In this document: positions 672-62,935 of the stretch, in pieces
How the letters are laid out: every line of letters begins with the position of its first letter
Position numbering within the stretch: the stretch's first letter is position 1
DNA from: Polytrichum commune
Lineage: Eukaryota; Streptophyta; Polytrichopsida; Polytrichales; Polytrichaceae
Direction: 5' to 3'
DNA length: 64,000 bases
Assembly (NCBI GenBank): GCA_950295325.1
Contig: OX485806.1
Location: 57,283,169 to 57,347,168 of the forward strand
Translations under genes and position numbers: made by a program
Notes under the pieces: generated by a model
The model's database searches: none
The model's input: only the letters and a program-made list of their open reading frames with translations
What the model was told of the DNA's origin: nothing

Positions 672-946
672 TGTGGGAGCCCAAAAATGCACGGAAATCC
701 GGATTGGCTTCTGAACTGGATTAATACCTGTCTAATACCCTGAGATTGTTATTAAAGTAGGGTTTCCTAGGGTAGGTTAGTTGTTTTAGGAAATAAGGTT
801 CTAGGCATCCGCCTCACTCGTTAAAATAGTTAAAACGGATACTTTGGCCGGACCGGATATTAACCGGGTAAGACCGTTTAGGAACGGTCCGGTCCGGAGC
901 GTCCGGACCGTGAGACGGTTACAACGGACTCCGAACGGTTGCGGGG
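672..946 (+). repeat. Truncated head of a giant LTR
   Basis: It starts with TGTGGGAGCCC, the 5' terminus of the giant LTR family, and parallels the first 275 bp of the copy starting at 947. It stops exactly where that next copy begins. The rest of this LTR is not found after 11549, so it is either a target LTR whose right part was lost or a duplicated LTR head. Confidence 0.8.
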
Positions 947-1079
947 TGTGGGAGTCCAAAAATCCACGGAAGTCCGGATTGGCTTCCTAACCGGATTAAT
1001 ACCGGGATAATACCCTGAGGATGGTATTAAAGTAGGGTTTCCTAGGGTAGGATAGTTGTTTTAAGAAATAAGGTTCTAG

Positions 1080-1268
1080 GCAATCGCCTTACGCGTTAAA
1101 ATGGTTAAAACGGATACTTTGGCCATAACGGATATTAACCGGGGAAGACCGTTTAGGAACGGTCCGGTCCGGAGCGTCTGGACCGGGAGACGGTTACAAC
1201 GGATTCCGAACGGTTGCGGGGGAAGCGGTTACGGAACCAGACCCGTTAGAAGAGAGAGTACTTAAGGG
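1080..1268 (+). promoter_or_regulatory. Putative LTR promoter, AACGG cluster and TATA-like box
   Basis: Between about 1100 and 1250 the pentamer AACGG (either strand) occurs about seven times, for example in AAACGGATA, GGAACGGTCC, ACAACGGATT and CGAACGGTTG. It is followed by a TATA-like TACTTAAGG at about 1259, some 185 nt before the ATG at 1443. The same order is present in the other two copies. The AACGG core is that of plant three-repeat MYB (MSA) sites. Promoter activity is inferred. Confidence 0.5.
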
Positions 1269-2953
1269 AATTTTTCCTCTTCTCTGAGCCATTTGCGCGA
1301 ACGGCATTGTCGAGAGAATGAGTGGTGAGTTGTTTTTTCGAGTCACCAGCAGTTGGTTTGCTGGGATTCCGTAGTGGTTAGCAGGTAGAATTCCGGAGGA
1401 GAGAATCCGGGTATTGTTGAAGATTTGAGGTCGCGAAGCAAAATGCCAGAAGCACAAGAGGAAGATGAGACGGAGCAGGTCCCGATCCCAGTGAAACTTG
1501 TATCGCCTGCCATCCCAAAGACATAATCCGAGTTAAAGGAGCTCATAGAGGACCTTAGCCGGATGGGTTGCGAGGGAGTACTCGCCAAGCCCTGGAATCT
1601 CCGGGCGGAGGCCACATTGCGTGAATTTCTATTCGAACAGAGGACTCGAGCGACACCGTGGTTCCAGAACCACCTCCCGCTTCGTCCCCTCCGAAAGTCC
1701 GGAAACCAGCCTCACCACCACCACGACAGCAAGCCAGAACCAGCCGGGAAGTTCCCTGGAGGGACATCAACTTATCGGCGTTTGATTTTCTGGAAGCCCC
1801 CTTCAAGCGCGTTCGGGAGGAATTGACAAAACTTCAGAACCAATATTTCCGGATGGAGCATATCACTCGCGGGGTGAATCGGGCCTTAGACAACTGTGGA
1901 CCCGGAAATATCCTCCGGGAATTGGCCAAGCGGACGGACCGGAAGCAGGTAGAGACCTTGGAGACGGAGAAGGCGCAGCTCGCAGCACAGGTGGCCGCTA
2001 TGACGCAGGAGCTCACCCAGAAGAGCGAGGAGATCCGGAAGTACCAGGCGGAACAAGCGATAGTCCTAAGTCGGGTCCAGGAATAAGTGGGCCATCCGGG
2101 AGAAGTCGTCAACAAGGCGCACCTCTATGACCAATTGATGGAGTCAGCGGATCCGTCTTCCGCCCGACAAACGCTCCAGATCCTGGTGAAGTACTCCCGC
2201 TCGATGAAGGATCTGCTCACGGAAATCCAGAAGGTTCTGCCTTCGAGTGGTACTCCCAGACCGGTGATCTATCCGGGTCCACCCGGATCTCCAACGGGCA
2301 CGCTGTATGAGGTTATAGGGGAGGTTGAACTAGTACTGGCCTCTCATGTGGGTGCGGGACCCAGGTAGCGAGCAGGAACTTCCAAGCCACCGGAATCCGG
2401 TAGATGTCCGGATCGGGAGAAGACTCTTGTCCTGGAATGGACCCGCTCATCCTAGGTTCGATGGAAGAGCACAGAGCGGTCAGCCAGATCCGGACAGGGG
2501 CAATCACCGAATCCGGATCGGGGCAGGGCATCAGAGCGGTCCAGAACACCGGAGAGGGCCAGAACTCCGAAAATGATGAAGACACTGGACCAGATGAAGA
2601 CTCCGGATAGGGGAAAGGCACCAATGTCACACGCCTCACCAGCTCCTACTCCAGATTGTATGATATTGGAGCAATGGGCGCCCCCACCCTCACACGCGAT
2701 GCCAGCAAAGGATCCCCGGACGTCTTAGGTTTCTTGTGGCCAAAACAGGGAACGGACCCCCGGGGGTGATGCTTCACCCATCCGGAGCTCCCAGAAGGAG
2801 AAGAAGGCTTCCGGAATAGCGTAGTCCGGATCGGGTGACGGACTGGGATAGGATCCGTCCGCGGCAGGCGATTCCGAGGATGAGATCGCCCCCTTCCCAA
2901 ACATGAGGAGGGTATTTACGAGCCTACAGGAACGGCGGTTCTTGACCCCCGGA

Positions 2954-3928
2954 TGTCGCGCACCTCTCCATGAGGAGTGCCCGAAACACCATGGGCACAA
3001 GGGGGACCCCGGAGTGACACCCGGGACTTGTGGCGCCGTTGGTGAGAGGGCCCAAGTGATCCTAGTGTGGGTGAGGGCCCCGGGCGTTGGGAACGCCTCC
3101 CACCCACAAAGACTAGGAGGCACAAGGGTAAGGCCATGAGCTATGCGTAGCTCATGGCGTGGTGATTCTAGAATGCTCAAGAACACCTCAATCGGAGGTG
3201 TGAGCTAGGAGTTATGGCCATTTGAGTGGGGCGCTGTCCCGGGACAGCGCCCTGGTGCAGCAGTGCCTGGGAGTGACTCCCGGGACTGCCAAGGTTCAAA
3301 GAGGCATAACGTCCTCATAACTTGCCCAAATGGGGCAAGTGAGGAGTCCATCGGCATCTACGTGAAACGTAGATGAAGATGGAGTGGTTTGTTGTTATGA
3401 TCAGACATCATACAAGGAAGTTATGATGGTATGAAGCTGCTGGGGGGTTCTAGGCCCAGCAGCTAAAGGAAAATGTCCACTTGGCCCCAACTCTTGGTAG
3501 AGAGACAAGAGGTTGGTTGACGGTGGGGTAGGGGCCCCGCGTGAAGTCCTAGAGGCTTATATGGGTGAGGTGGTGTGGCCTCACCCACCCGAGGCCGAAC
3601 GGCACGGCCTCCATGGGCATTGGCCCAATGTGAGGCCATAGTTGCCTAGTATGGTTCGGGTTGTTGTAGTGTTGCTCCGGCAACGCGATGATCAACATAG
3701 GATTGGACTTCCAGGGATGGAAGTCCACATTGGGGAAATGGGTTACCGATTAAGGGGTGAGTCCCGAAAGCAAAGTAGGAGGGTTGGTTCCCTCCTATGA
3801 ACTATTGGTCCGGGGTTAGAGGAGCTAACCATTAGCATGGCGGTATGCGAAGGGTTAGCCACTCGTAACCTTTGCTAGAATTGAAAATTGGCAAGATGGT
3901 CAAGGGGGGGCTAGCAAGGGTTGCAATA
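2954..3928 (+). repeat. 5' LTR of element A
   Basis: It runs from TGTCGCGCACC to GGGTTGCAATA. The terminal CA has decayed to TA, as the opposite LTR ends CAACA and element B ends GCGACA. The sequence contains a long series of inverted repeats, including 3133-3143/3148-3158, 3230-3240/3241-3251, 3435-3444/3455-3464 and 3704-3713/3718-3727. A TATA-like CTTATATGGG lies near 3556. Confidence 0.95.
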
Positions 3929-3930
3929 CT

Positions 3931-3942
3931 TGGTATCAGAGC
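3931..3942 (+). other. Primer-binding site, initiator tRNA-Met
   Basis: TGGTATCAGAGC lies two bases after the 5' LTR. It is complementary to the 3' end of plant initiator methionine tRNA and is the standard minus-strand primer site of chromoviruses. Confidence 0.95.
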
Positions 3943-3992
3943 AGGGTTCCAATATTTGAGCTAGCACTTTGAGGTAGACATGGCTATCAAAA

Positions 3993-4866
3993 ATGCGGGT
4001 TATGATGGTGAGCCCGGGGTTTCCAAAAGGTTGTGAGGCTCAAATTGGAACAAGGATCATGTGCAAGTGGATTTTGATCATACCATTGATTCTAATGACA
4101 ATGGTGGGCATGAGGGTGGATTTGGTGAGGAAAATGGAGGAGTGCTTTGAAAAGGCTCCCACAAACCTCGAAAAGTATTTGGGGGCTAGAATACCGAATG
4201 CACCCAAAACCTTGGAGGGCATTAATGTTGGATTGAAATTCCAATTCGAAATGCTTAGAAGGTGGTGATGTTGAAATGAACTTGGGGCACATGAGGCACG
4301 CGGGGTCTCTTAAGGCGTATACGTGCTAATTTCACACCCAAATGAATGGTACATCTAGGATGGACGAGCTTTCTAAGAAATGCATCGTTTTAGGTGGGTT
4401 TCAAAAGCGGGTGGTGAAAACCATGTTCAAGACCCCAAAGCTTCTTGAGGACGTTGTGCGAATCATAAAGATTTGAAGAGCATTGAAGCCGATGGTCCTA
4501 AGAAGAAGTTGGGCGGCACATCACCACAAAGTGGGTTTAGCCGAAAGAGGTCCCAAGGAAATGAGCGCAAGTAGTTTGGCCCATTATACCAAGGCAAATC
4601 ATGCTAGCTCGTGCCGCGGATGGAATGTGAGAAGGTGGCTTGGTGGTACCAAGCTAGATCATATTTGTGCCACGGACGGAGTGTTAAAAGTTGGCCTTGC
4701 GGACCAAGCCAAACTCATGGTGTTGTCGAGGACCAAATGTTAGACGATGGCTTTGTGGCCAAGGCTAGTAGCCTTAAGCCGAGGCCAAGTCTTTTGTATC
4801 TTGAGGCTCAAATGAATGGGAGAAATGTCTCATGGGTGACAAAGAGGCAAGCCATTTCTTCTTGAG
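3993..4866 (+). pseudogene. gag remnant of element A
   Basis: Several overlapping frames carry the decayed nucleocapsid/capsid gene. A segment around 4110-4265 (EKAPTNLEKYLGARIPNA) and another around 4345-4475 (MDELSKKCIVLGGFQKR) are found again in element B at the matching place. From 4611 a cysteine-containing stretch probably corresponds to a former zinc knuckle. Stops and frame changes interrupt it at about 4266, 4328 and 4475. Gag would form the virus-like particle. No functional product is possible here. Confidence 0.7.
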
Positions 4867-4892
4867 CCCGAAACTCATAAGGGAGTTGGGGC

Positions 4893-5423
4893 TTGCCGAT
4901 TGATAGAGCAAGCAAGCCCACCAAGGTGCGGTTTGGAAAGGGCGAACCACATGAGACAAAGGAGGCCGCGATGCATGTAACCTTTCAATGTGGGACATTG
5001 GATTTTTGTCAAAATTTCACACCAAGTGAAATACATGAAATGCATGTCATTGTGAAGGCCGCCTTCTTTGAAACTCACATGATAGATGTGAGGTGCAAGC
5101 CGGTGTGCTTGCGGTGCATTATGATGTGTCATAATGGCAAAGAATTGAAGTTCAAATTAACAAAAACTCCTATGGTAGGAGGACCTAAGTTGAATTTGGT
5201 CTTAATGGACCGAATGAAAAAAAAAAAAAAAAACATAATTGTTGTGGTTCAATTGGAGCAACTCCAAGGAACGTATGGGGAGGCGAGGAAAGATGGGCCT
5301 CCCCCAAACCACATTGGTGGGATGTTGGTGAGATACAAGGATGTATTCACCAATGTGTTGCCCAGAAAGTTACCGCCAAGGAATAAAAAAATAACTTTGC
5401 TCAACGAGATATTGAGTTCTTAA
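4893..5423 (+). pseudogene. Protease-like domain and linker of element A
   Basis: A 176-codon stretch remains open. It has the layout of the retropepsin-like region of chromoviruses followed by the linker to reverse transcriptase (LQGTYGEARKDGPPPNHIGG, then VRYKDVFTNVLPRKLPP, the start of an RT domain). No canonical DSGA/DTGA catalytic triad is readable. A run of 17 A occurs at about 5217-5233 and is absent from element B. Immediately after the RT start the reading jumps to the RT thumb, so the catalytic palm is missing. Confidence 0.7.
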
Positions 5424-6619
5424 GGTATGTGGTGACAAAGGAAGTTGGTGGACGAACATGAAAAATGTCAAAGCAATCCAAAAGGAGAATTGGCCCTTCA
5501 TTCAACAAGGGCTTAGGTCATTTGTTGGCCTAGCCAACTACTACCACCACTTCATTCGAGAGTTTTTGAAGGTTGCTAGGACCTTAATCAACTTATTGAG
5601 GAAAATGGCTATCCCAAGAGTGGGATGAGCCTTGTCACCAAGCGTTTGGGGAGCTCAAGAGCAAGTTCTCTTCACAAGATGTGGTTAAGTTTCCGGATTT
5701 TAGTAAGCATTTTGAGGTGCACATGGAGGTGAAGGACTTTACCTTTGGCGGATGTTGATCCAAGATGGATGACCATTGCTTATGGGAGCATAAAGCTCCA
5801 TGGTTGTCGAACCTTGTCCGGCGTGTGTAAGAAATGGTTATCCCAAGAATGGGATGAGCCTTGCTACAAAGCCTTTGGGAAGCTTAAGACCAAGTTCTCT
5901 TCGCCGCCCGTGCTCAAGTTCGTGGAGTTGACAAACCTTTGAGGTGCATACGGGGGCAAGTGACTTTACCATTGGCGGATGTTAAGGCAAAATGAATGGC
6001 CATTGCATATAAGAGCATGAAGCTCGATGGTTGTTCGACCTTGTCCAACGTGTGCAAGAAATGGCTATCCCAAGAGTGGGATGAGCCTTGCCACCAAGTC
6101 TTTGAGGAGCTTAAGACGAAGTTCTCTTCGCCACCCGTGCTCAAGTTTTTGGAGTTTGACAAACCTTTTGAGGTGCATACGGGGGCGAGTGACTTTACCA
6201 TTGGTGGATGTTGATGCAAGATGGATGGCCATTACATATGAGAGCATGAAGCTTGATGGTTGTCCTACCTTGTCCGACTTGTGGAAGAAATAGCTATCCC
6301 AAGAGTGGGATGATGTTTGTCACGAGTCTTTGGGGAGCTTAAGACCAAGTTCTCTTCGCCGCCCGTGCTCAAGTTCATGGAGCTTGACAAACCTTTTAAG
6401 GTGCATACGGGGATGAATGACTTTGCCAATGGTGGATTATGTGTAAGATGGATGGCCATTGCATATGGGAGCATGAAGCTCGATGGTTGTCAAAGAAGAC
6501 AACCAACTCATGACAAAGAACTTCTTTGTCGTAGTGCATTGCTTGAAGATGTGGCGACACTATTTGGGGTCGCACAAAGCAAAGGTCTACATGGACAATG
6601 TGCCCTAAAAGAATTTTGA
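5424..6619 (+). pseudogene. RT thumb and RNase H remnant of element A
   Basis: The sequence resumes with a segment corresponding to the end of the RT palm/thumb (QREIEFLRYVV-like, then LRSFVGLANYYHHFIREF at about 5514-5570). It runs into the RNase H start (EVHTGASDFTIGGC, MAIAYGSMKLDG). The junction of thumb and RNase H is repeated four times (see the tandem array). The last copy leads into a short RNase H continuation (PTHDKELLCR at about 6505). Stops occur throughout. No RT active-site motif is present. Confidence 0.8.
5606..6520 (+). repeat. 228-bp tandem array inside pol, four units
   Basis: A segment starting TGGCTATCCCAAGAGTGGGA begins at 5606, 5835, 6062 and 6291 (spacing 229, 227, 229). 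Each unit encodes the end of the RT thumb (EWDEPCHQAFGELKTKFSS) and the start of RNase H (DKPFEVHTG, MAIAYGSMKLDG). Element B carries the same array with three units. The period is a multiple of three or close to it, but units differ in frame and contain stops. Confidence 0.92.
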
Positions 6620-6881
6620 CATACAAGCGTAAGTGAGCGCCAAGTCATTGCGGTGGCATGATAGTTTGGCGCTTATGTAGGTGGATTTGATCCACAAACC
6701 GGACCGTGGAAATGTAGTGCCGGATGCGCGAAGTAGACCGGAAGAGTTCCAAGCAATGAGAACCATCCAAACCTTGTGGCTAATGTGTGCCGGCGAAGGA
6801 AACTTGTGATGCAAGATACGGGAGGGGTAAATTAACTACCCCAAAGCACAAAAGCTTTTAGGTGAGCGTCGCAAGAGCACG

Positions 6882-7839
6882 GTGCTTAAAGAGGTTAAGT
6901 TGGTGGACGGATTGTTCAAGTGCAAGCAAAGTTGGGTGTATGTGCCACAAGGCAAATTGAGGCTATCGGTTTTGAAGGAGGAATATGATAGTCCTATTGC
7001 CGGCCATAGAGGAGAAAGAAAAAACCGCCATAGAATGGTGTCTTGGAGGTACCATTGGCAGTGCATAAAGGAAGATATAGCCCACTTTGTGAAGGCTTGA
7101 ATCAAATTGCCAAGTGAACCGAGCCTCTTACCAAAAGCAAGGCGGTTTCTTGCAACCGTTGCCTATCCCGTCGGCGCCATGGCATAGTATGTGCATGGAC
7201 TTGATCACAAGTTTGCCGAAGTCACATGGGTATGATGCCATCTTGTTGATGGTTGAGCGGTTTGCCAAGTTGGCACACATGGTGCCGATTGTGGGAACCG
7301 CAACCGCGTTGGAGACCGCATAGCCTTTTCTCAAAGGATGGTTGAGGCACCACGAGTTGCCAAGAGTGATTGTGTGGGATCAAGATCCAAAGTTCACAAG
7401 TGCATTTTCAATGCATTTCTCTAAGGAGGTCGGAATGAAACTAAGGTTTAGCACGGCCTTGCATTCCCAAATGGATGGGAAAGCGGAGTGTGTGAATGGG
7501 TTCTCGAAGCAATACTTGAGGAACTTCGTGGGGGCGGACCAAGGAGATTGGGCGGACTATGTGAGTCGAGCGGAGTGTAATTGCAATGTAGCCACGCACT
7601 TGGCTACCAAAAGGTGGTCTTTCGTGGTGGCTTATGGAGTGGATGCACTCCAACCTATTAACCTAGCTCTCGAGGGGGCACATTCAACACTAGAGTTCAA
7701 CCAAGATGGTGAGGACTTGGCCAAGGATGGTAAACAAGTCTTGGAGATGACCAAGTTGTTGGTGGAGAAAGCCCGAAGGTGCTACGGAGTGCAAGTCAAT
7801 GCCGGAAGACGCGAAGTGGAGTATGAGGTGGGCCAATAA
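6882..7839 (+). pseudogene. Integrase remnant of element A
   Basis: The N-terminal zinc-binding part (DSPIAGHRG, about 6985) has lost its second cysteine pair, with a stop at 7098 where the CxxC should be. The catalytic core is partly readable. The first Asp is in MCMDLITSLPKS (about 7190-7225), the second in VWDQDPKFTS (about 7365) and the Glu in DGKAECVNG (about 7475). The core ends in the GRREVEYEVGQ segment (about 7805-7838). A TAG at 7321 and a stop at 7837 break the frame. The enzyme would insert element DNA into chromosomes. This copy cannot. Confidence 0.85.
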
Positions 7840-8290
7840 GGTGTTGTCGAATGTGGACAATTTCACCTTGCCCAAAGGCCTTACTCCAAAAGTTCATGTC
7901 CAAAATTGGAGCTTCGTTTTCCATTGTGGAACAAATGTTCAAGGACATGTATAAGTTAGAATTACCGCCGGAGATCAAAGTGCATCCGACATTTCATGTC
8001 TCATTACGAAAGTCATTTTAGGACGACACCTTGTGGCCCGAACACAAGCAAGTGATTAATTAGGCCACGTCCCGACCTTGTGGAGGTCATTTGGAACATG
8101 AGGTAGGAGGGCATCCTCAAGTGTAGGAAGCCCAAATGAAAAGGAAAGAAAAATGTACAAAGGAGTACTTGGTGAAATGGTGAGGATACCATGAGAAAGA
8201 AACCGCTTGGGTGGCGGCAAGAGACATGGTGAACACCAATGAATTGGTGAAGAACTTTGAATAAACTAAGGCTAAGGATTCCAATAAAAT
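7840..8290 (+). pseudogene. Integrase C-terminus and chromodomain remnant
   Basis: After the frame break the sequence reads, in changing frames, ELPPEIKVHPTFHVSL (about 7960-8005) and a downstream stretch matching the lysine-rich, WV-containing chromodomain layout of chromoviruses (about 8120-8260, ending near VKNFE). This domain targets integration to chromatin marks. Its presence is why A and B are called chromoviruses. It is not translatable as one piece here. Confidence 0.65.
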
Positions 8291-9120
8291 GAAGCGTAGG
8301 CATTGATGAGGACATCAATCTCCTTTAGTGGGGGAGAGACGTTAGTAGCACACTTAACTTCGAGGTTAATTACTCCACAACATGAACTTGTTCTTTGGCT
8401 TGAGGGAATAAAGTCCAAACTTTAGTGGTGCAAAGAGAAAAGTATGAGATGAGTTCCTAGTCTTGTACTTGTGCTTGGTTAATGGAAGAGGGGGAATAGA
8501 TATGCCAAACTAGGTTGGGTAAGCCGAGTAATTGGGGGCCATGGCTTGGAGGGGCCTTGGATAAAACCAAGAAACTTCTTAGTTGTGGGCTTGTCCGGGC
8601 GGGGACAAGGTGATGGCGCGTGCTCATAAAAGTGCTACCCGCGAGCTAACGAAAGTTGGCGCATGGGAGTCATGAACCCATGTCTCGAAAGAGCAAAGTG
8701 GGAACCGAGTCGGGCGGGACTTGGCATCACCCCCGTGCGATCGAGGCGTGGCTTAACAATGGAAAGCCATCTCGGAGTTGCAACCGAGACAACTTAGTGG
8801 AAGCGTTGAGGTCTCGCCTAGATGTGTCATGTTAGGCTAGTGGAGCCTAACGGGGGAGGCCCCAAAGGAGGGGCAACCCAAGTGAGTCCCAAAGTAGGTG
8901 GGTCTAGTATAGGTTAGGTCCTTGGACAAGAGATCCAAGGTCGCTAACGGACCACCTAGGAACGACACCTTTGGGACTATGCCAAATTTGAAGATGCATT
9001 GTGGGGGTCGCGCCCTAAGGTAAACACAATGCCGCACCATAGAGGATGGCAACTTGAGAATTGGTGTGCCGACTACGAGTATAGTCGATGAGGGCATCGA
9101 CTCCGTTTGGTGGGGGTGAG
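8291..9120 (+). other. Non-coding 3' internal region and polypurine tract of element A
   Basis: About 830 bp without a credible reading frame lie between the chromodomain and the 3' LTR. A matching stretch is in element B at 14305-15080. It ends with TTTGGTGGGGGTGAG (about 9106-9120), directly against the 3' LTR, which fits a polypurine tract for plus-strand priming. Confidence 0.7.
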
Positions 9121-10095
9121 TGTCGCGCACCTCTCCATGAGGAGTGCCCGAAACACCATGGGCACAAGGGGGACCCCGGAGTGACACCCGGGACTTGTGG
9201 CGCCGTTGGTGAGAGGGCCCAAGTGATCCTAGTGTGGGTGAGGGCCCCGGGCGTTGGGAACGCCTCCCACCCACAAAGACTAGGAGGCACAAGGGTAAGG
9301 CCATGAGCTATGCGTAGCTCATGGCGTGGTGATTCTAGAATGCTCAAGAACACCTCAATCGGAGGTGTGAGCTAGGAGTTATGGCCATTTGAGTGGGGCG
9401 CTGTCCCGGGACAGCGCCCTGGTGCAGCAGTGCCTGGGAGTGACTCCCGGGACTGCCAAGGTTCAAAGAGGCATAACGTCCTCATAACTTGCCCAAATGG
9501 GGCAAGTGAGGAGTCCATCGGCATCTACGTGAAACGTAGATGAAGATGGAGTGGTTTGTTGTTATGATCAGACATCATACAAGGAAGTTATGATGGTATG
9601 AAGCTGCTGGGGGGTTCTAGGCCCAGCAGCTAAAGGAAAATGTCCACTTGGCCCCAACTCTTGGTAGAGAGACAAGAGGTTGGTTGACGGTGGGGTAGGG
9701 GCCCCGCGTGAAGTCCTAGAGGCTTATATGGGTGAGGTGGTGTGGCCTCACCCACCCGAGGCCGAACGGCACGGCCTCCATGGGCATTGGCCCAATGTGA
9801 GGCCATAGTTGCCTAGTATGGTTCGGGTTGTTGTAGTGTTGCTCCGGCAACGCGATGATCAACATAGGATTGGACTTCCAGGGATGGAAGTCCACATTGG
9901 GGAAATGGGTTACCGATTAAGGGGTGAGTCCCGAAAGCAAAGTAGGAGGGTTGGTTCCCTCCTATGAACTATTGGTCCGGGGTTAGAGGAGCTAACCATT
10001 AGCATGGCGGTATGCGAAGGGTTAGCCACTCGTAACCTTTGCTAGAATTGAAAATTGGCAAGATGGTCAAGGGGGGGCTAGCAAGGGTTGCAACA
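9121..10095 (+). repeat. 3' LTR of element A
   Basis: It is 975 bp, from TGTCGCGCACC to GGGTTGCAACA. By reading it differs from the 5' LTR at one position (second base from the end). It is followed by the CCGGA target duplicate at 10096-10100 and then by the resumed giant LTR. Confidence 0.95.
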
Positions 10096-10482
10096 CCGGA
10101 GGATGCTCCTCCGCCATCAGCAGGCCCGCAAGTCATTCCAAGGATGGGACGGCTTCGAAGAAGCATCGTACCACTTAGTTTAGACTTAAGCATGCGGCTA
10201 TAGGCAGATCAGAATTAGGTAGATCAGAATTAGGCATACAAGTTTTAGGATACTTTTGAGTTTTGGCAAACTGTAAATTCAAATTTTCTATCAGTGCAAA
10301 AAGCGGATCGAGATCCAGAAATTCTGCGAAGGATGTGTTTTCGAATTTCTCGCTGCGTGGGATTTTCTGGCGGCCAACTGGGCCGCCACCCGTAGTTAAG
10401 GATTACAATCTCTACTTAAGGCTGAATAAGGAGCTTGAGAAGGGTTCTCTTCTCCGATGTTGTATTTTGTCGCTCCCCACTC

Positions 10483-10488
10483 AATAAA
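10483..10488 (+). terminator. Polyadenylation signal AATAAA in giant LTR copy 1
   Basis: AATAAA lies about 305 nt after the stop of the LTR reading frame, in a stretch conserved in the solo copy (there CATAAAG, mutated, at about 62305). It fits the end of an LTR transcript. Confidence 0.5.
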
Positions 10489-10646
10489 ACTCTAGTTCTC
10501 AATCTATTTTTACTTGTTTTGTGATCAAACTGTTAGGAGAATGTTGGAGATCTAGAGGGAATGAATGAGTAGGAAGGACGGATAGGACAAAGGAGAGGAA
10601 ACCCAGATCGGATCCAATTGCAGTACTATGGACCCTTTCTGAGTGT

Positions 10647-11110
10647 ACTGGGAAGGAAACCTCATAATTCCGGATGTCTGGGTAACGTCTACGTGAGATA
10701 GCTGTCGTTAGGACTGGGTAAGATTAAGGGGGTGCCGGACTTACGCCATCCGACCTTCTGAAGAGGTCTCACAGCCCCTGGGCGGGGCAATCCGGAAACT
10801 GGTACGGATCGCTCAGTTATCTCAGATTTAGTAGAGCCTAAGTTCATTGTATTCGGATCGGTCTGTCGGAAGGAGAGAAACCGGAGCGATTAGGATTCCG
10901 GTCCGGAGGTCATTTCCGGGGTGTAGTGGGAAGGAAACCTCATTATTCCAAATGCCTCGGTAATGTCCATGTGAGATAGCCGTCGTTAGGACTGGGTAAG
11001 ATCAGGGAGGTGCCGGACTTACGCCATCCGACCTTCTGAAGAGGTCTCACAGCCCATGGACGGGGCAATCCAGAAAGTGGCACGGATCACCCAGTTATCT
11101 CTGGATGAAT
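10647..11110 (+). repeat. Duplicated module in giant LTR copy 1
   Basis: A stretch of about 180-190 bp starting at 10647 (GGGAAGGAAACCTCATAATTCC) recurs at about 10925. Both contain GGTGCCGGACTTACGCCATC and end near a CAGTTATCTC phrase. The same pair, about 280 bp apart, is in the solo copy and in the minus-strand copy, so it is an original part of the LTR. Confidence 0.85.
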
Positions 11111-11549
11111 CTTGACGTTTCTGTCGTTGTAGTTCCGGGGAACCATCCGGATTCTCTGTGTGACCTGCCAGGAAAGATTAGGCCGATCCGGACTGGTTGT
11201 GATAGAAATCCGGATTTTGACCATACAGGGACGTCTTCACCGGATGAACCAAATCATCATTGGAGGTAGGATATAGATAGGTATGTATTGAGGAAAGAGG
11301 CACGTAGGAGTAAGACGTAGTTATAGAGGTTCAATCCGGAAAGCAAGTCCCGGAACAAGGACTTCCAAGGGACCATCCGGATCCTCAAAGCCGATCCGGC
11401 CGGTGGTCGATTTTTCAAGCAGGAAGAGAAGGTCCTTGACATCCTACAGTTCACAGAATCCTTGGACGATACTCGGATCATCCGGACAAACCGGATTAAG
11501 CATTGAAAAACACCTATCCGGAAACTTTTGGTGTTCGTGTGCTCCCACA

Positions 11550-20945: not shown

Positions 20946-21170
20946 TGAGCTAATTGGGCCATTATGAGACAATTCGTACCGATGGGACCGTGCACTGGGA
21001 ACGTGGTTCACAAGTAAATACCTGTGAATTGCCATCATTGACAAGGTTTAGTAGAACAAGAGGAAGGTCATCAAGATAGACTAACACACTATTTCATGCA
21101 CATTGGTGTATATATATAAACTACAATAATGCATATTCTTGCCCAAAGAAAAATTTAGCCCAGTTGTAAT

Positions 21171-23430: not shown

Positions 23431-23442
23431 ATATTGAAAGTC

Positions 23443-23505
23443 ATTCTAAAGGATTTTTATCTAAGGAAACAATATATTCTAAAGGATTTTTATCAAAGGA
23501 AACAA
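23443..23505. repeat. Two direct 30-bp repeats at a junction
   Basis: A 30-bp phrase beginning ATTCTAAAGGATTTTTATC occurs at 23443 and 23476 (period 33) with one difference. It lies between the phosphatase exon and the truncated end of gag. Confidence 0.85.
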
Positions 23506-23551
23506 CAGATTGGATAGACATGAGTATGTATCAGGATGAGAAAATGCATTG

Positions 23552-24342
23552 CACCTCTAATTGTTCCCGACTTAAAGAAACCTTGAATGAAGAATTGTTT
23601 TAGTGTGTCATCATTGAGCATAGTGCCCACCAATCGTGTACACACTAAATCAAACCTCCTAATGTAAGCCGAGATCTTTTCTTCCCTTCCTTGCTTCAAT
23701 GAAGCCAATGCCCTCAAAGCCGTGCTTTGGCCGACCTCCGGCCTAAACTCATTCAACCCCCGCTTCTTGGAAGGTCTTCAGGAATAGCCGGATGAAATCC
23801 ACCCAGTCATCCCTGGTCTCGTCTGGGACATCTTGGTACCATTTCAATGCCTCCCCTTTTAACAGTCCTTGGAAGATCCGGCCCTTGGCATCCGCATCCT
23901 CTTCGTTGGCGGTGGCAATGGACTCGAACTCACAATACCAGTCATCCACATCCTGACTTCCGTCTCCTCGGAATCGACTATACTTGAGTCGAGTTGCTGG
24001 GGCCATCCGGGCGGCGGGAATCCCCTCCTCTTCAGACTCCGCTCCCGTCCCCCTTGATCCGTCTGGAGTGGAAAATCCGGAGAATCCGGCGGGATTCGGA
24101 CTGGGTGGGGCGGACTCGTCCAAGGATAATACTATAACATCCCCTTCCTCTCTCGAGGTGGTCCGGGCCCTTCGGTCCGAGTTGGTGTCGGGTAAGGTGG
24201 GCGTTATCAACCCTCCTCTTAGATTTTCGAGCCGGGCGGATCTCCAGGGCGCTGTACCAAACGTCTGGGATCTGCTCATCCCAGCGAGAGACACATTGCA
24301 GAACGGAATCCACCTTGCGACAGTGTGCATCAGCAGGTCCAA
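23552..24342 (-). pseudogene. gag of the giant-LTR element, frameshifted and truncated
   Basis: It starts close after the primer site. The likely start is the Met of MSRSQTF near 24279. The acidic N-terminus (EEGDVIVLSLDE) leads to a retrotransposon-gag capsid domain (YSRFRGDGSQDVDDWYCEFE, then GLLKGEALKWYQDVP). A one-base change in a run of G at about 23758-23763 shifts the frame. The domain continues in the next frame as VGQSTALRALASLKQGREEK to about 23554 (SGTIRG). There the element ends abruptly and unrelated sequence follows. The gene shows that the 4.1-kb repeat beside it is a true 5' LTR. Confidence 0.88.
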
Positions 24343-24368
24343 AGCGTCTCCTCCCCCCTACAGCTTTA

Positions 24369-24389
24369 GAATCCCCGGCAGCGGCGCCA
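24369..24389 (-). other. Primer-binding site, tRNA-Asp type
   Basis: On the minus strand, six bases after the LTR end, stands TGGCGCCGCTGCCGGGGAT. It matches the complement of the 3' end of plant tRNA-Asp (TGGCGCCGTTGCCGGGGAT) with one difference. Athila-type elements use the same primer. Confidence 0.88.
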
Positions 24390-24899
24390 AAAACGTGTGG
24401 GGACACGCGAACACCAAAATGTCCGGATTGGCGGTTTTAAGTGCCTAATCCGGGTTGTCCGGATGACCCTAGTATCGTCCAGGGATTCTGTGAAGTGTAG
24501 GAGGTCTAAAACTCTCCGTACCTGCTTATTTCTTCTTCCTTAGCCAAATTTCCGGAAATCCTAATTTCCGGATATTTGGTCTTTGGGGACATTCTTAGCC
24601 TTTTTTTTCGGAGGGTACCTCTCCGGATGTTATTTCTAGGTCCTCTTTATAATACTTACCCACCCCTTTACGTCTACGCTCTAGAATAATTGGTTTCTTC
24701 CGGTGAAGACGTCCTTGATAAGGTTAGAATCCGGGAACTCCCTCACAACCAATCCGGATTGATCAGGTCCGTCCTGGCAGGTCACGCAGAGAGATCTGGA
24801 TTGTTTCTTGGGACCATAGTGGCCAGAGGAGTCCGGATTCCAACCGGAGATCTAACTCGACGGGATGAGTAGGTGACCCGTACCACTTTCCGGATTACC

Positions 24900-25330
24900 C
24901 CGTCCAAAGACTGTGAGACCTCTTCAGAAGGTCGGATGGCGTAAGTCCGGCACCTTCCGGATCTTGCCCAGTCCTAACGACGGCTATCTCACATGGACGT
25001 TACCCAGGCATTCGGAACAATGAGGATCTCTTCCTACTGCACTCCGGAGGTGGCCTCCTATCGGAATCCTTACTGATCCGGACCTCTCCTTCTCCGTCCG
25101 ACGGATCTGTCCGGCTACCTTTACCTTGGATTCTACTCAATCTGAGATAACTAGGCGATCCGTACCACTAATCCGGGCAGGTCCGTCTAAGGACGGTGGG
25201 ACCTCTTCAGAAGATCAGATTGGCGTAAGTCCGGATTCCTTCCGGATCTCACCCAATCTTTCCAGCGGCTATCCCACCTAGACGTTACCCAACCTACCGG
25301 ATTAGTGAGGTTTCCCTCCCACTACACTCA
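24900..25330 (-). repeat. Duplicated module in the giant LTR
   Basis: Two similar stretches of about 190 bp, with starts near 25325 and 25040 on the minus strand, both contain AGTCCGGCACC/AGTCCGGATTCC and CCTCTTCAGAAG phrases. They correspond to the pair at 10647/10925 and 62469/62750. Confidence 0.8.
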
Positions 25331-25782
25331 GAGAGGATCTACAAGGCGGTAACCGGATTTGATCCGGGTCTCCTCTCTCATGTCCTATCCGGAACTCCTA
25401 TCCCTCATGCCCTCCCTTTCTCTTCCACTAACGATCTCCGGGTCATTCATACACACATCAATCAAGAGAAGTCAAGGGGTGAGAAGCAAAGCCATTTATT
25501 CAGGGTAGGAATAACCACAATACAACAATGGAGAAGGAACCCCCCTCAAGCTCCTTATTCAGCCTTAAGTAGAGGCTCAAAAATCCCTAAACTGAGGGCG
25601 GCGGCCCAAACGGCCGCCGCTCAAGAAAACCCTAACTACCCCCGGTCTCCCGGATTTCTCGGATCCAGATCCGGGTTTTCCGCTGACACTACCAAAGGAA
25701 AATTTTATTAATCGTCTTCAAAAACTCCTAAGTCCTACCTGCCTACCTCCCTTCTGCCTAACCAATCTAGCCACTCCCCTAA

Positions 25783-27855
25783 TTAAGAAGACCGGTGCTT
25801 CTTCGGAGCCGATCCCTCCTTTGAGTGACTCCCTAATCCGCTGACGGCGGATGAGCCCCCGGCCGGCGACGCCTTCTGCAGCCGCGTGAGCATCCTCCTC
25901 ATGTTCGGAGACGGAGCAACCTCGTCCTCCGAATCCGCTGCCCTCTCGGTCCGTGGGGTAGCGGTCCCTGGTGTCCCGGAGACTGTCCCTGGGGTTCCGG
26001 AAGCTGTCCCCATCCGGATGCTTCGGACTGGAGAAGGATCGCTTCCGGTGCCCTGCTCCGGATTCCGTCCACCCGAGAGTGAAGCCGTCCGCGGATCCCT
26101 GTTGGAGGCCGCTCTCAAGTGTGGCGGAGGAAATGGACTCACCACTTGGCAATCCCGTGGAGACGATGGCGAGGCGTGGGTCATAGGAGCCTTGCCCCTA
26201 CTCGGAGTGGCCTCCCGATCGGAAGTCTGGTGCCGGATCGGCGTCCGAGCCCTATCCGGAGTCCGGGACCTATCCGAGTTCCGCGGAACAGGGGACTGGC
26301 CCCTTCCGGATCGGACCGACCCGGTGCTCTTCCGCCTCACCTGGGGAGAACGGACCCTTTCCGGAGCCCCTCCGGAATTACCAGGCCGAGAGCCGCCTCC
26401 TTGCTGGCTGGGTCCTGCAGAGGCCGGCGGATTCTGAACCAGGGCTACTTCACCAACCACCTCGTAGAGGGTTCCGGTTGGTGACCCTGGCGGACCCGGA
26501 TAGAGCACCCTCCGCGGTGTTCCGCTTGGCGGGACCACCCTCTGGATTTCCGCCAGGAGATCCTTCATCGTCCGTGAATACTTCACGAGGATGGGGAGGG
26601 TCTGCCTGGCGGAAGCCGGTTCTCCGGACTCCATCATCCGGTCGTAGAGATGTGCCTTGTTCACGATCTCCGCCGGATGACCCACCAGCTCCCGGATCCG
26701 GCTGAAGAGCACTGCCTGCTCCGCATGGTACTTCCGGATCTCCTCACTCTTCTGACTCAGCTCCTGGGTCATAGCTGCTACCTGTGCGGTGAGGTGGGCG
26801 TTCTCCGTCTTGGCTTGCTCCAGCTCCTTCCGGTCCGCCCTCTTTGCCAATTCCCGGAGAATGTTTCCGGGTCCGCAGTCGTCCAGAGCATGGTTCGCCC
26901 CCTTGACGATGTGCTCCAGTCGGTAATACTGGGTCTTGAGGTCCTCCATCCCCTCCTGGAACCGCTTGAATGGATTCTCCGGGAAGTCCCAAGCGGATAG
27001 GTCCACATTTCGCCATGGGGTCTCCCGGCTGGGTCCGGCTTCCGGATGTTGGTGCGGGGGAGGGGGAGAGAGTGGCCTCGAGACGGTTGGTGGCGGGCTT
27101 CCGGGTGACGAGGGAGGTGCTTCCGGAAGAATAGGGTCGCTGGAGGTCTCCGTCTCGACGTCTCCGGCTTCCGGGAGCAGCTTGTAGGTGACCTCATCCG
27201 CCGCTATTGTGAGCAGGTCCTCCTCCTCTGCCGTGATGCAGTCGAAATGCTGGTAGAGGTGCAAAATGAAGGGGGAGAGGAAGGAGGGTTTCCGGCCAAT
27301 ATGGGGGAGGGCCCGTCCGACTATCTCCTGGATGATCAGGCCCCAATTCACCGGCCGGACTCCGGACATTGCACCAAACAGCGTGTTAACCATGGTGAGG
27401 CTAATCCGCTTCGGCTTGTCCGGATTGAGAATGGGCAGGAGAAACTCTAGCACTCTCCACTCCCTAATATTCCGGCAGTTCCCTGGGTGAAACCCGTCCT
27501 TTGGATCCGCGTCCCCTCTGAACTTCCCGGCGAACAGGCCGTCGCGGCGGCCGGCCCACCCCTCCGTGATTCCCCTGGGAAACCCGTAGACCCTGTTCCA
27601 CGTATCCGGAGTCCAATGTTCTGGATCCCTCCTCTTTGTGCCTAGCCACTGATTTCCCCTCTCGAATTTAAACTCGCGGAGGGTATCTTCCGCTCTGAGA
27701 TTCCAGGGTTTGGAGAGCAATCCCGCACAACCCATGACCCTGAGATCCTCCGCGAGCTCCTGCAGCTCTCTATCCTCCCTCGGAATTGCAGGGGTGAGGG
27801 CTTTCAGCGGAATCGGGATGGGTTCCCGCTGATCCTCTTCCCGTGCTTCCGGCAT
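25783..27855 (-). CDS. LTR-encoded 690-aa coiled-coil protein, intact
   Basis: The frame is open from the ATG at 27855 to the stop at 25783 and lies wholly within the LTR, in sense. The start is supported because both other copies have MPEA at the same place. Residues 30-230 look globular (KPWNLRAEDTLREF, RVYGFPRG, GAMSGVRPVNWGLI, PSFLSPFILHLYQHFD). This part loosely resembles the region found in Athila-type ORFs and annotated as a putative plant transposon protein, which is an inference from residue pattern only. Residues 235-285 are Pro/Ser-rich, and 335-395 form a heptad-like coiled coil (LAKRADRKELEQAKTENAHL). Residues 395-470 are again ordered, while 480-690 are Arg/Ser/Pro-rich and end in basic KKHRSS. 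There is no zinc knuckle, protease or polymerase motif. A role in RNA or DNA binding, packaging or regulation is possible but unproven. Confidence 0.8.
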   Translation of the reverse strand: MPEAREEDQREPIPIPLKALTPAIPREDRELQELAEDLRVMGCAGLLSKPWNLRAEDTLREFKFERGNQWLGTKRRDPEHWTPDTWNRVYGFPRGITEGWAGRRDGLFAGKFRGDADPKDGFHPGNCRNIREWRVLEFLLPILNPDKPKRISLTMVNTLFGAMSGVRPVNWGLIIQEIVGRALPHIGRKPSFLSPFILHLYQHFDCITAEEEDLLTIAADEVTYKLLPEAGDVETETSSDPILPEAPPSSPGSPPPTVSRPLSPPPPHQHPEAGPSRETPWRNVDLSAWDFPENPFKRFQEGMEDLKTQYYRLEHIVKGANHALDDCGPGNILRELAKRADRKELEQAKTENAHLTAQVAAMTQELSQKSEEIRKYHAEQAVLFSRIRELVGHPAEIVNKAHLYDRMMESGEPASARQTLPILVKYSRTMKDLLAEIQRVVPPSGTPRRVLYPGPPGSPTGTLYEVVGEVALVQNPPASAGPSQQGGGSRPGNSGGAPERVRSPQVRRKSTGSVRSGRGQSPVPRNSDRSRTPDRARTPIRHQTSDREATPSRGKAPMTHASPSSPRDCQVVSPFPPPHLRAASNRDPRTASLSGGRNPEQGTGSDPSPVRSIRMGTASGTPGTVSGTPGTATPRTERAADSEDEVAPSPNMRRMLTRLQKASPAGGSSAVSGLGSHSKEGSAPKKHRSS

Positions 27856-28086
27856 TTTCCTCTCCTCTCACCCTTTCTGGCTTGCAACCTCTCTCTCTCT
27901 CTTCCGGAGTCCTTCTCTTCCGTCTAAGTGCCACAAAGTCCCGGCAAGCCCACTGCCGGTGACTGAAAAGTGCTGAGTCCCAGCAATCCAACTGCTGGCG
28001 GCTCGAAAGAAGGAACACCTCACCACTCGTTCTCTCAACAGGTTGCCTTTTTCCAGAAAAGAGTGGGAGGGAGAAGGAAGGGACCC

Positions 28087-28262
28087 TTAAATATCCTTCC
28101 TCCCTCTTCCTTCCCCTGTTACTGTTCGGTTTAACGGAAAACGGTTACCAACCGTTTTCCGGCGGTTCCCACCAACGGTTTTACTAACATTTTCACCAAC
28201 GGCTCTCTTTTCCCCCAACCGCCATAAGGCCCGTTGTAACCGCCACTTCCGGGCCGTTGGGT
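28087..28262 (-). promoter_or_regulatory. Putative LTR promoter of the 690-aa gene
   Basis: A TATA-like TATTTAA sits at 28087-28093, 232 nt before the ATG. Upstream of it (28130-28262) AACGG or its complement occurs about eight times, for example CCAACGG, AAACGG and CCGTTTT. The arrangement repeats in the other two LTR copies, although the sequence between motifs differs. Function is inferred. Confidence 0.5.
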
Positions 28263-28522
28263 AATCTTGGCGCGTCCGTCACTTGGTCCGGACCAAGGGT
28301 TTGGACCATGATTACATGGTCCGCCCATCCTATTTGACGGACTGGTCATAGTACTTATTTAAAGTCGTTTTACCGCACAAGGCGGGGCTAGACTACTCTA
28401 TTTCCTAGTACCATTAATTTTGTCCTAATAGACCCTATTATCCTCAGATAAGCAAGGTAAAATACGGAAATTGAATCCGTATTTACGTATTTCCGTCTTT
28501 CCGTCGAATTTGGACTCCCACA

Positions 28523-59415: not shown

Positions 59416-59569
59416 TGTGGGAGCCCAAAAATCCACGGAAGACCGGATTGGCTTCCTAACCAGATTAATATCCGGATAATACCCTGGTATTGGTCTCAAA
59501 GTAGGGTTTCCTAGGGTAGGTTAGTTGTTTTATGAAATAAGGTTCTAAGCATCCGCCTTACGCGCTAAA

Positions 59570-59768
59570 ATGGTTAGAACGGACCCTTTGGATGGACCGG
59601 AACTTAATTCGGGGAGACTGTTTTTAAACGGTCTTGTCCGGAAAACGGTTACACCGGAATCCAAACGGTTACACCGGAACCCGAACGGTTGCAACGGAAT
59701 CTAAACGGTTGCGGAAGAAACGGTTATGGACCCAGACCCGTTAGAAGAAGAGGGGAGAATACTTAAGG
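59570..59768 (+). promoter_or_regulatory. Putative LTR promoter, AACGG tandem cluster
   Basis: AACGG occurs about eight times within 145 bp (59578-59724), several as part of a near-tandem unit of 19 bp such as AAACGGTTACACCGGAA. TACTTAAGG lies at about 59760, 183 nt before the ATG at 59943. The sequence AACGGTT is the core of plant MYB3R (MSA) sites. The unit number differs between LTR copies. Confidence 0.52.
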
Positions 59769-59942
59769 GAAATTTTCTCCTTCTCCGAGCCATTTGCGCG
59801 AGCGGCATTGTTGAGAGAACGAGTGGTGAGCTATTTTTTGAGTCACCAATAGTTGGTTTGCTGGGATTCCTTAGTGGTTAGCGGATAGAATTCCGGAAGG
59901 AAGAAGCCGGGGATTGTTAAAGGATTGAGGGTGCGAAGCAAA

Positions 59943-61994
59943 ATGCCAGAAGCGCGAAGAAGATGAGAGGGAGCAGGTCCCGATTCCCGTGAAACCGGTA
60001 TCGCCGGCCACTCCGAAGAGAGATTCCAAGCTGAAGGAGCTCATAGAGGACCTTAGTCGGATGGGTTGCGAGGGATTACTCGCCAAACCCTGGAATCTCC
60101 GGGCGGAGGCCACATTGCAGGAATTCCTGTTTGAGAGAGGCAATCAGTGGATTCGGACAATGAGGCAGGAGCTGGAGAAATGGACGTCGGAGGTCTGGGC
60201 TGGGGTTTACGGATTTCCGAAAGGAAAGGGTGAGGGCTGGGCTAGCCGCCGGGATAGTTCTAAGGTAGGGAAATTCCAACCGGACCCGGATCCGAAGGAC
60301 AGATTCCATCCCGGGAATTTCCGGAACCTTAGAGAGAGGAAAGTCATAGAATTCATTCTCCCCATCCTTAGTTCGGAAAAACCCAAGCGGCACAACATTA
60401 CCATGGCCAACACCATGTTGGGGGCCATGTCCGGAGTCCGGCCTGTAAATTGGGGTTGATTAATTCATGAGTATGTGGAAAAATTCATCCCCCACATTGG
60501 CCGGAAACCCTTTTTTCTTTCCCCTTACATCCTCCACCTCTACCAGCACCACGGCTGCATCAACGAAGAGGGGGAGGACATGCTGACAATAGCGGAAAAT
60601 GAGGTGGTGTACAAGATCGGTCCGGAAGTCGAAGTTGCGGAGACCAGAGCAGAGGACTCAAGCGACACAGCGGTTCGGAACCACCTCCGGTTTCGTCTCC
60701 TCCGAAGGTTCGGAAACCCGCCTCGCCATCGCCCCGACAGGAAGCAGGACTCAGCCGGGAAATTCCCTGGAAGGACATCGACCTCTCCACCTTTGAGTTT
60801 CCGGAAGCCCCCTTTAAGCGCATCCGGGATGAGTTGACGGAGCTCTAGAACCAGTACTTCCGGATGGAGCACATCACCCGGGGAGTGAACAGGGCCCTAG
60901 GCAATTGTGGACCCGGAAATATCCTCCGGGAGTTGGCTAAGCGAACGAACCGGAAATAGGTGGAGACCCTGGAGACGGAGAAGGCACAGCTGGCGGCACA
61001 GGTGGCCGCTATGACCCGGGAGCTCGCCCAGAAGAGCGAAGAAATTCGGAAGTACCAGGCGGAACAAGCTGTGGTTCTGAGTCGGGTCCGGGAGTTGGTG
61101 GGCCATCCGGGAGAGATCGTCAACAAGGCACACCTCTACGACCAGCTGATGGAGTCAGCGGATCAGTCTTCCACCCAGAAAACGCTCCCAATCCTGGTAA
61201 AGTACTCTCGCTCGATGAAGGATCTGCTCAAGGAGATCCAGAAGCTGCTGCCAGGTGGTACCCCCAGGCGGATGCTCTATTCGGGTCCACCCGGATCTCC
61301 GACGGGCATTCTGTACGAGGTTATTGGGGAAGTGGAACTGGTTCCGGCCTCACAGGCGGGTGCGGGGCCCAGTCAGCCAGCCGGAACTTCCCAGCCACCG
61401 GAATCCGGAAGAGTTCCGGATCGAGAGAAGACCCCTGTTCCGAAACGGCCCCGCTCATCCCTAGTTCGACGGAAGAGTACATAACAGTCAGCCAGGTCCG
61501 GACGGGGACAATCACCGAATCCGGGTCAGGGTAGGGCGTCAGGGCGGTACCGAACGCCAGAGAGGGCTAGAACACCGGAAAGGATGAGGACGCCGGATCG
61601 GACGAAGACTCCGGATTCGGTGATTGTCCCGAATTCCCGTCCCATCCGGACGAAGACTCCGGATTCGGTGATTCGCCCGTTCCTGCTCTTGACTGCATGA
61701 TAATGGAGCCGTGGGCTCCTCCACCCTCACATGCGATGTCCGCCAGGGATCCACCGGAAGGAGAAGAATGTTTCCGGTGCAACGCGATCCGGATCAGGTG
61801 ACGGATCGGGAGAGGATCCGGCCGCGGCAGACGATTCCAAAGAAGAGGTCGCCCCCTCCCCTAACATGAGGAGGGTATTTACGAGGCTGCAGGAGCGACG
61901 ACTTTTGACCCCCAGGGGAGGCTCTTTCGCCATCAGCAGGCCCGCGAGTCAAACCAAGGAAGGGACGGCTTCGAAGAAGCACCGCACCACTTAG
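59943..61994 (+). pseudogene. LTR-encoded coiled-coil protein, broken copy in solo LTR
   Basis: It has the same start (MPEAR) and end (KKHRTT, stop at 61994) as the other copies. A frame change after six codons, a TGA at about 60457, further frame changes around 60640 and 60700, and TAG codons at about 60846, 60958 and 61482 destroy it. Between these, the globular part (RVYGFPKG equivalent, GAMSGVRPVNWG), the coiled coil (METLETEKAQLAAQVAAMTR, about 60960) and the Arg/Pro-rich end are clear. It has nearly full length with no large deletion. Confidence 0.9.
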
Positions 61995-62468
61995 ATTAAG
62001 CTTAGGCATATTAACATTAGGCAGATAAGGAGTAGGTAGTTCAGAATTAGGTAGGTAGAGTTAGGAAATCTTCTTTTTGGGTTTTGACAAAACTGTAAAT
62101 TCAAATTTTTGTCAGCGCAAAAAGCGGATCGAGATCCAGAAATTCTATGAAGGACGCGTTTCCGGATTTCTCGCCGCTTGGGGTTTTCTGGGCGGCTGCC
62201 TGGGCCGCCACCAGTAGTTAGGGATTGTGGCCTCTATTTAAGGTTGAATAAGGAGTTTGAGAAGGGTTCTCTTCTCCGATGTTGTATGTTGTTGTTCCCT
62301 ACTCCATAAAGCTCTAGTTCTCCATCTATTCTGACTTGTTTTGTGCACGGACTGTTAGGAGAATGTTGCAGATCTAAAGGGAATGAATGAATAGGAAGTA
62401 CGGATAGGACAAAGGAGAGGAAACCCGGATCGGATCCGACTACAATACTATGGATCTTTTCTGAGTAT

Positions 62469-62935
62469 AGTGGGAAGGAAACCTCATTATTCCGGATGTC
62501 TGGGTAACGCCTATGTGAGATAGCCGTCTTTAGGATTGGGTAAGATCAAGGAGGTGCCGGACTTACGCCATCCGACCTTTTGAAGAGGTCTCACGGATCC
62601 TGGGCGGGGCAATCCGGAAAGTGGTACGGATCGCCCAGTTGTCTCAGATTTAGTAGAGCCTAAGTTCGTTGTAGCCAGATCGGTCTGTCGGAAGGAGGAG
62701 AGAAACCGGAACGGTTAGGGTTCCGATCCGGAGGTCATTTCCGGCGTGTAGTGGGAAGGAAACCTCATTATTCCGGAAGCCTGGGTAACGTTCATGTGAA
62801 ATAGCTGTCATTAGGATTGGGTAAGATCAGGGAGGTGCCGGACTTACGCCATCCGACCTTCTGAAGAGGTGTCACAATCTTTGGGCGGGGTAATCCGGAA
62901 AGTGGCACGGATCGTCTAGTTATCCTGGATTAACA
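62469..62935 (+). repeat. Duplicated module in solo giant LTR
   Basis: AGTGGGAAGGAAACCTCATT starts at 62469 and 62750 (281 bp apart), and about 185 bp after each align closely, including GGTGCCGGACTTACGCCATC. The DNA between the modules is unique. Confidence 0.9.

Follow-up and report, generated by a model that had tools for sequence, protein, structure and literature searches.

Why should a long terminal repeat (LTR) of a plant retrotransposon enclose an entire protein gene, and what could such a gene do for the element that carries it? The question is raised by a 4.1-kb repeat, copy A, in Polytrichum commune (assembly GCA_950295325.1, contig OX485806.1, 57,283,169-57,347,168, forward strand; these 64,000 nt, taken whole, are the window), which a sequence-only reading had described as a real 5′ LTR containing a complete gene for an intact 690-residue protein. 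The interpretation presented here, to which we give about an even chance, is that the LTR is a self-contained gene, with a promoter in U3, the 690-codon gene, a poly(A) block and a U5 with two RNA domains, and that its protein would have an anti-silencing role similar to that of the VANC proteins.

The first part of the answer concerns the repeat itself (Table 1). Copy A has TG...CA ends and is followed by a primer site, which we take to be that of tRNA-Asp, and by gag, whose two pieces match PF03732 with E values of 9.4e-5 and 8.3e-5, each about 1 bit under the Pfam cut-off; pol is missing or interrupted in this copy, and a piece at 20488-20949 that is presumably integrase-like gave no match in a Pfam search. 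Units of the same type also occur as solo LTRs, with perfect 5-bp duplications in 29 of the 40 genome copies examined. The 4.1-kb LTR belongs, by the ends and 5-bp duplications of its copies, to a family of plant LTR retrotransposons, and the adjoining primer site and gag are of the Ty3/gypsy type. PMC1142308 places the tRNA-Asp primer site of Diaspora at a similar position, 5 bp beyond the LTR.

Table 1. Position of the features in the window (position 1 is its first letter).
Feature	Position	Strand	Remarks
LTR copy A	24396..28522	-	4127 bp, TGTGGGAG...CCCCACA; ends and flanks read directly
Primer binding site	24373..24389	-	TGGCGCCGCTGCCGGGG, six bases past the LTR end; presumed tRNA-Asp type
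gag, two overlapping frames (24357-23749, 23777-23493)	23493..24357	-	PF03732
U3 with AACGG array (7 sites, about 28258-28132)	28094..28522	-	7 against 2.2 in shuffles
TATA-like box TATTTAAGGG	28084..28093	-	B and C have TACTTAAGGG here
22-nt block without differences between A and C	28019..28040	-	By alignment; leader otherwise poorly conserved
690-codon open frame	25783..27855	-	Intact; purifying selection; relatives
N-terminal globular domain, residues 20-232	27160..27798	-	VANC21-like by predicted fold
Long-helix / coiled-coil middle, residues 295-440	26536..26973	-	Structure model; weak coil-type Pfam matches
Disordered Arg/Ser/Pro-rich tail, residues 441-690	25786..26535	-	Model mostly with pLDDT under 50
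Poly(A)-type block	25495..25525	-	TTGTAT, then AATAAA 19 nt further; putative use
U5 structured RNA domain, copy 1	25146..25335	-	MFE -81.1 kcal/mol, z -4.39
U5 structured RNA domain, copy 2	24864..25044	-	Same fold, covariation
97 CCGGA/TCCGG sites, frame included	24396..28522	.	20.7 in shuffles
Copy B, LTR with first 275 bp duplicated	672..11549	+	Frame broken, partly deleted; carries nested element 2955-10096
Copy C, solo LTR	59416..63385	+	Flanks GTTAA/TTTAA (4/5); broken frame

The frame is open from end to end in copy A, and the layout read earlier from the letters alone (a globular N-domain, a coiled coil and an Arg/Ser/Pro-rich tail) reappears in the structure model, with a long helix in the middle and a disordered tail; this tail, with its basic end PKKHRSS, would suit a nuclear role. 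A single-sequence search gave 51 related proteins at E ≤ 0.01, seven of which (680-705 aa) cover at least 95% of the protein, and an alignment-based search gave 145 (the best 120 listed). A search of viral contigs, genome contigs and plasmids found no surrounding DNA that would place these relatives in LTRs. A known domain recognizable by sequence was discarded, there being no usable match in Pfam or among PDB sequences (for the relatives, among the best 25 Pfam matches), and Foldseek found nothing at E ≤ 0.001, either with the full-length model in PDB and viral models or with the N-domain alone; VIA with the full-length model returned rows for the coil region only. The HMM and structure searches that had been proposed yielded, then, no usable sequence match, but they did yield a predicted fold: the N-domain model superposes on residues 303-555 of VANC21 in its DNA complex, and is in this sense tentatively VANC21-like, a DNA-binding protein on DNA being the sole fold match of the 690-aa protein.

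The two other copies in the window share the frame in broken form, as had been claimed, with seven stops in two pieces of B and six in two pieces of C, in addition to frame changes; the outer ends of B show no matching duplication, and the element nested in it has its own CCGGA duplication. Differences between A and C at codon positions 1, 2 and 3 amount to 0.265, 0.218 and 0.478, and dN/dS (NG86) is 0.167 for A-B (480 codons), 0.207 for A-C (645) and 0.28 for B-C (440), none of them near 1, the value that, together with a lack of transcripts, the sequence-only reading had set against itself; the tail of the protein is looser (0.32 in A-C, 0.59 in B-C). The pN/pS of A-C is 0.37 in frame, as against 1.11 and 1.43 in the shifted frames, 1.13, 1.50 and 0.52 in the antisense frames, the last value being low because the third antisense frame mirrors the silent positions of the coding frame, and 0.80 (sd 0.06, minimum 0.64) in 500 neutral simulations. 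These three controls rule out a chance frame.

The same selection was followed in 20 young copies, namely A and 19 of the 20 copies retrieved (the truncated L014 was dropped), which have a median pairwise difference of 1.1% and come from the top of a protein-score ranking that favors intact frames. Variants found in at least two copies comprise 28 silent changes, 7 replacements and no stop (codon positions 3/3/29), with 23.7 nonsilent changes expected and none of 2000 simulations as low as the observed 7. Private variants comprise 49 silent changes, 78 replacements and 4 stops (40/42/49), so that 82 of 131 are nonsynonymous or stop, against a neutral 89.2 (sd 5.3), with as few nonsilent changes in 227 of 2000 simulations, and the stops number 4 against 4.1 expected. 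The neutral expectation took its spectrum from private variants in the noncoding LTR and distinguished CG, CHG and CHH contexts; under a cruder scheme, with transitions weighted 2, relative omega is 0.63 among private variants and 0.09 among shared ones. This is the pattern of an element gene, kept by purifying selection while the copies spread, and free to decay near-neutrally in each copy once settled. That the family has been domesticated, the plant maintaining the genes of solo LTRs to its own benefit, is very improbable: although 42 of the 64 scored copies have no internal stop and 16 of the 20 aligned frames are fully open, the youth of the copies alone can explain this, and a host-maintained gene is disfavored by the near-neutral private variants.

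In the genome search, 64 of 1407 candidates were scored (94-100% identical). Perfect 5-bp duplications against the LTR ends are present in 17 of the 20 copies at ranks 2-21 (L009-L028, 9970 bases each, with 2.5-3.3 kb of flank), where L024 retains a remnant of the primer site, L019 lacks a duplication, and L014 is truncated, and in 12 of the 20 at ranks 22-41, seen at their ends only, where two match at 4/5 and six have one end outside the stretch; among the other 23 copies, ranks 51 and 62 show a primer-site junction. The copies examined are mainly solo LTRs, and a host gene caught between repeats is ruled out, because the unit moves with its own duplications. The claim that the gene can persist and spread once the rest of the element is lost has to be limited: solo LTRs do keep the frame, but private mutations in settled copies look neutral.

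At up to two mismatches, a U5 24-mer from the LTR 3′ region occurs 399 times in the genome, the LTR-primer-site junction 5 times and a frame 24-mer 158 times, with 0 for the reversed patterns, and gag-side DNA has 10 matches, 6 of full length; more diverged junctions, for example that of L073, escape the pattern. For the control family, that of the nested element, the LTR-end pattern occurs 4427 times, against 3 for its reversed control, and the junction 543 times; the junction figure is an undercount, since the common variant already costs two mismatches. The proportion of LTR ends to junctions is about 80:1 in the LTR family and about 8:1 in the control, of which only the order of magnitude counts, because the patterns differ in strictness. 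Such an excess, the lack of a same-strand partner within 20 kb for all 64 listed copies (compared by eye), and the ends TGTGGGA/TCCCACA, which are inverted repeats, would favor a 4.1-kb unit that spreads as such, through integrase in trans or TIR-like transposition, with gag-bearing copies as a minority branch. We consider this unlikely, as an LTR that lacks a primer site has no known way to replicate, all six full-length gag matches lie behind a copy A-type LTR end, and recombination between two long LTRs also leaves solo LTRs with 5-bp duplications. Moreover, families with longer LTRs have a larger share of solo LTRs (Du et al., 2012, cited by PMC7251063). Such spread concerns only the route, and is compatible with an anti-silencing protein.

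The sequence-only reading also expected both LTRs of a complete element to carry the frame, which the copies examined do not bear out. The one verified two-LTR element (L073 and L079; C1:69813006-69821348, read on either side of its middle, 69816131-69820049) has a primer site, gag and ATTGT on both sides. Its LTRs, of 1028 bp and about 1.33 kb, the latter measured without its first bases, agree at 95 and 98% over two aligned blocks and lack LTR positions 166-2956, frame included: a case which that reading had named as refuting. Among the genome copies examined, no two-LTR element with the frame was found; the 5′ LTR L071 has no same-strand partner downstream within 20 kb among 40 scored of 511 candidates, and a pair of LTR ends on C3 (10192113, 10181699) was rejected as a complete element, being a rearranged LTR beside a copy with non-matching flanks. 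Three 5′ LTRs with a primer site contain the frame, namely copy A, C4:5394004-5396052, which is free of stops, and C1:46376711-46378744, which has two. L071, L072 and L074 bear gag, L071 and L074 having been read for the last 1.5 kb of the LTR, while the LTR match of L072 ends at LTR position 2828. As a whole, the earlier interpretation was right about the LTR, the selected frame, its retention in solo LTRs and, by model, the protein layout, but was not borne out for complete elements.

With regard to expression, the AACGG-rich region and the TATA-like box described previously are both present. The U3 of A, B and C contains 7, 7 and 9 AACGG sites, where shuffling leaves 2.2, 1.8 and 1.8; for copy A, 2 of 300 shuffles reach its count. 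The density in A and C is 16-26 per kb in U3, and 0.5-1 per kb in the remaining parts of the LTR that were counted. MYB3R binds the plant mitosis-specific activator, whose core is AACGG, and this suggests, by analogy, that the family is expressed in dividing cells. The conserved leader block ends in GTGGTGAG, possibly a 5′ splice site or other RNA signal; Rfam gave three weak matches at 27978-28120. The counterpart of the poly(A) block has AATAAA in B and ATAAAG in C, and in copy A TTGTAT and AATAAA lie about 255-290 nt past the stop codon. The gene is likely to sit, from these signals, between the start site and the poly(A) block, in the probable R region. The transcript between the TATA-like box and this block would be a complete mRNA that any solo LTR could produce, and in full elements transcription would read through to U5, primer site and gag.

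The LTR also carries a dense CCGGA/TCCGG array, CCGGA being the most over-represented 5-mer in LTR A. Its density per kb is 36.6 in U5, 24.1 in the frame, 9.3 in U3, 8.4 in the leader and 6.2 in the poly(A) block, and 8.5 on the gag side; copy C has 90 sites against 17.0 in shuffles, and the flanks of solo LTRs have 1.34 per kb. The frame has 50 sites, which occupy all reading frames, against 19.6 (sd 4.1, maximum 30) in 300 synonymous-codon shuffles, and the density is kept in A and C, although no more than 41 of the 97 sites in A coincide in position with sites in C. Composition, repeat growth or codon choice could have produced the array as a by-product, and the resemblance to VANC21 could reflect a common helical arrangement; this seems to us unlikely.

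Sequence-specific anti-silencing proteins are known from VANDAL (Mutator-like) DNA transposons, and a dense short-motif array on the element itself is a feature of VANC systems. By analogy, the 690-aa protein would be nuclear, self-associating and DNA-binding; it would recognize, both in cis and in trans, the (A)TCCGGA sites arrayed over the LTRs of its own family and would counter the silencing of these LTRs, in the manner of VANC proteins acting on VANDAL transposons. Each solo LTR would hold both factor and target, until mutation removes the factor. In its fullest form, which we put somewhat short of an even chance, the LTR would be a mobile anti-silencing cassette encoding a VANC-type binder, with even the coding sequence written in the target motif of that binder, and the hundreds of solo LTRs would form a trans-acting network holding the family's LTR promoters open.

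U5 also contains a 190-nt fold in two copies, with 60 pairs and 95% of cells paired in the six related sequences compared (slid versions of the pairing reach at most 52%), and with compensatory double changes in 12 pairs against 4.2 in shuffles, none of 500 having as many; in the repeat, Rfam gave no match up to E 1. The fold probably serves as a signal for packaging or dimerization, and could be the RNA partner of an ordinary additional retrotransposon ORF, acting in RNA export, packaging or particle assembly and unrelated to silencing. Additional ORFs upstream of gag are known: Ogre has one of 550 codons between LTR and gag (PMC1142308), and the descriptions of Retrosat2/RIRE ORF0 and of the Tekay 5′ aORF put both upstream of gag-pol, the Tekay protein having coils, disordered regions and a predicted signal for nuclear import. 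Nevertheless, such a role is on the unlikely side, though not negligible, since the one structure matched by fold is a DNA-binding protein in complex with DNA, and the array is a feature of the DNA that runs through frame and U5 and is also present in U3. These ORFs share with the present one a place upstream of gag. Here the whole gene is inside the LTR and is carried by solo LTRs, while the available descriptions of the Retrosat2/RIRE and Tekay ORFs do not place them within the LTR.

Other comparisons are also partial. The Athila lineage shares a large extra ORF and, in the related Calypso/Diaspora group, a tRNA-Asp-type primer site, but its aORFs are 3′ aORFs, and their families (PF03078, and Transposase_32, PF20167) are not among the six Pfam families shown for the 690-aa protein at E ≤ 10; nor are DUF1985/DUF287, the VANC signature. 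The sag gene of MMTV lies in the U3 of a mouse retrovirus LTR; the likeness is one of position alone, a complete gene within an LTR, here kept by selection, and no homology is claimed, the present gene lying behind the TATA-like box in the likely R region. With VANC21 it shares being transposon-encoded, a dense single-motif array and variable regions, and its predicted N-domain superposes on that of the VANC21 complex; it differs in belonging to an LTR retrotransposon, within the LTR, in having no detectable sequence similarity, and in sites that also occupy coding DNA and have both orientations. VANC21 acts through a dense YAGTATTAY array and VANC6 through another motif (PMC5735166). A phrase search of the open-access literature found no precedent for a protein gene inside a plant LTR, which does not prove its absence in print. 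Many of the papers that matched concern MMTV, and others a fungus, a butterfly or foamy viruses, among further subjects; PMC1560396 describes a gene within an LTR retrotransposon. PMC10398659, PMC12844716, PMC11728184, PMC7264820, PMC3485330 and PMC7466625 were likewise drawn on.

If the anti-silencing reading is true, VANC-type anti-silencing would extend past Mutator-like transposons to LTR retrotransposons, and synonymous sites would be under selection for protein-binding motifs. With a selected gene of VANC-like fold inside an LTR, the trick would have been put to use a second time, either independently or from very ancient origins, and the reason why a retrotransposon retains such a gene there would be explained. 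Further handles on the spread of the element come from the scarce internal regions and from the RNA domain of U5, duplicated and covarying. A solo LTR would be a gene rather than a scar, and the evolution of LTRs would become testable in a new way.

The ~4-kb LTR carries features that would act at the level of RNA, among them a tandemly duplicated, covarying domain in its 3′ part (U5) that is present in all three LTR copies in the window, and for which, in copy A, a search of Rfam returned zero matches up to E 1. In the leader, between the TATA-like box and the 690-codon frame, conservation between copies A and C is poor except for a single block, whose end (GTG/GTGAG), lying 5′ of the start codon, could be a splice donor.

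Features of the LTR, its surroundings and a short-LTR member of the family (window positions unless prefixed)
Feature	Position	Strand	Basis or detail
U5 RNA domain, tandem duplicate, copy A	25335-25146 + 25044-24864	-	pairing/covariation analysis
U5 RNA domain, tandem duplicate, copy B	10560-11120
U5 RNA domain, tandem duplicate, copy C	62380-62945
Leader block, 22 nt	28040-28019	-	A/C alignment, A = C exactly
149-bp tandem repeat, immediately adjoining copy B	1-745
Nested LTR element inside copy B	2955-10096		LTRs 99.9% identical; duplication CCGGA
NIF/FCP1-type phosphatase reading	22714-23445	-	PF03031, E 2.6e-10
680-aa open frame, TTG start	30644-32686	+
Two-LTR element, short LTRs (L073, L079)	G000:C1:69813006-69821348

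The nested element is a very recent insertion into copy B, and its LTR-end pattern occurs 4427 times in the genome searched (G000; 408 Mb in 64 contigs, six of the large ones being of 42-78 Mb). The phosphatase reading, which lies in the internal region of copy A and adjoins the truncated gag, would be either a captured gene fragment or a separate repeat; the 680-aa frame found nothing in Pfam better than E 0.08.

As for the protein itself, P0051 led to a distant branch of the family (P0122-P0150; 17–31% to the window protein), several of whose members are encoded on contigs of 100-800 kb.

Within the LTR family, both of the short LTRs of the two-LTR element are without promoter and without frame, and a 10-bp overlap at the junction points to a microhomology deletion.
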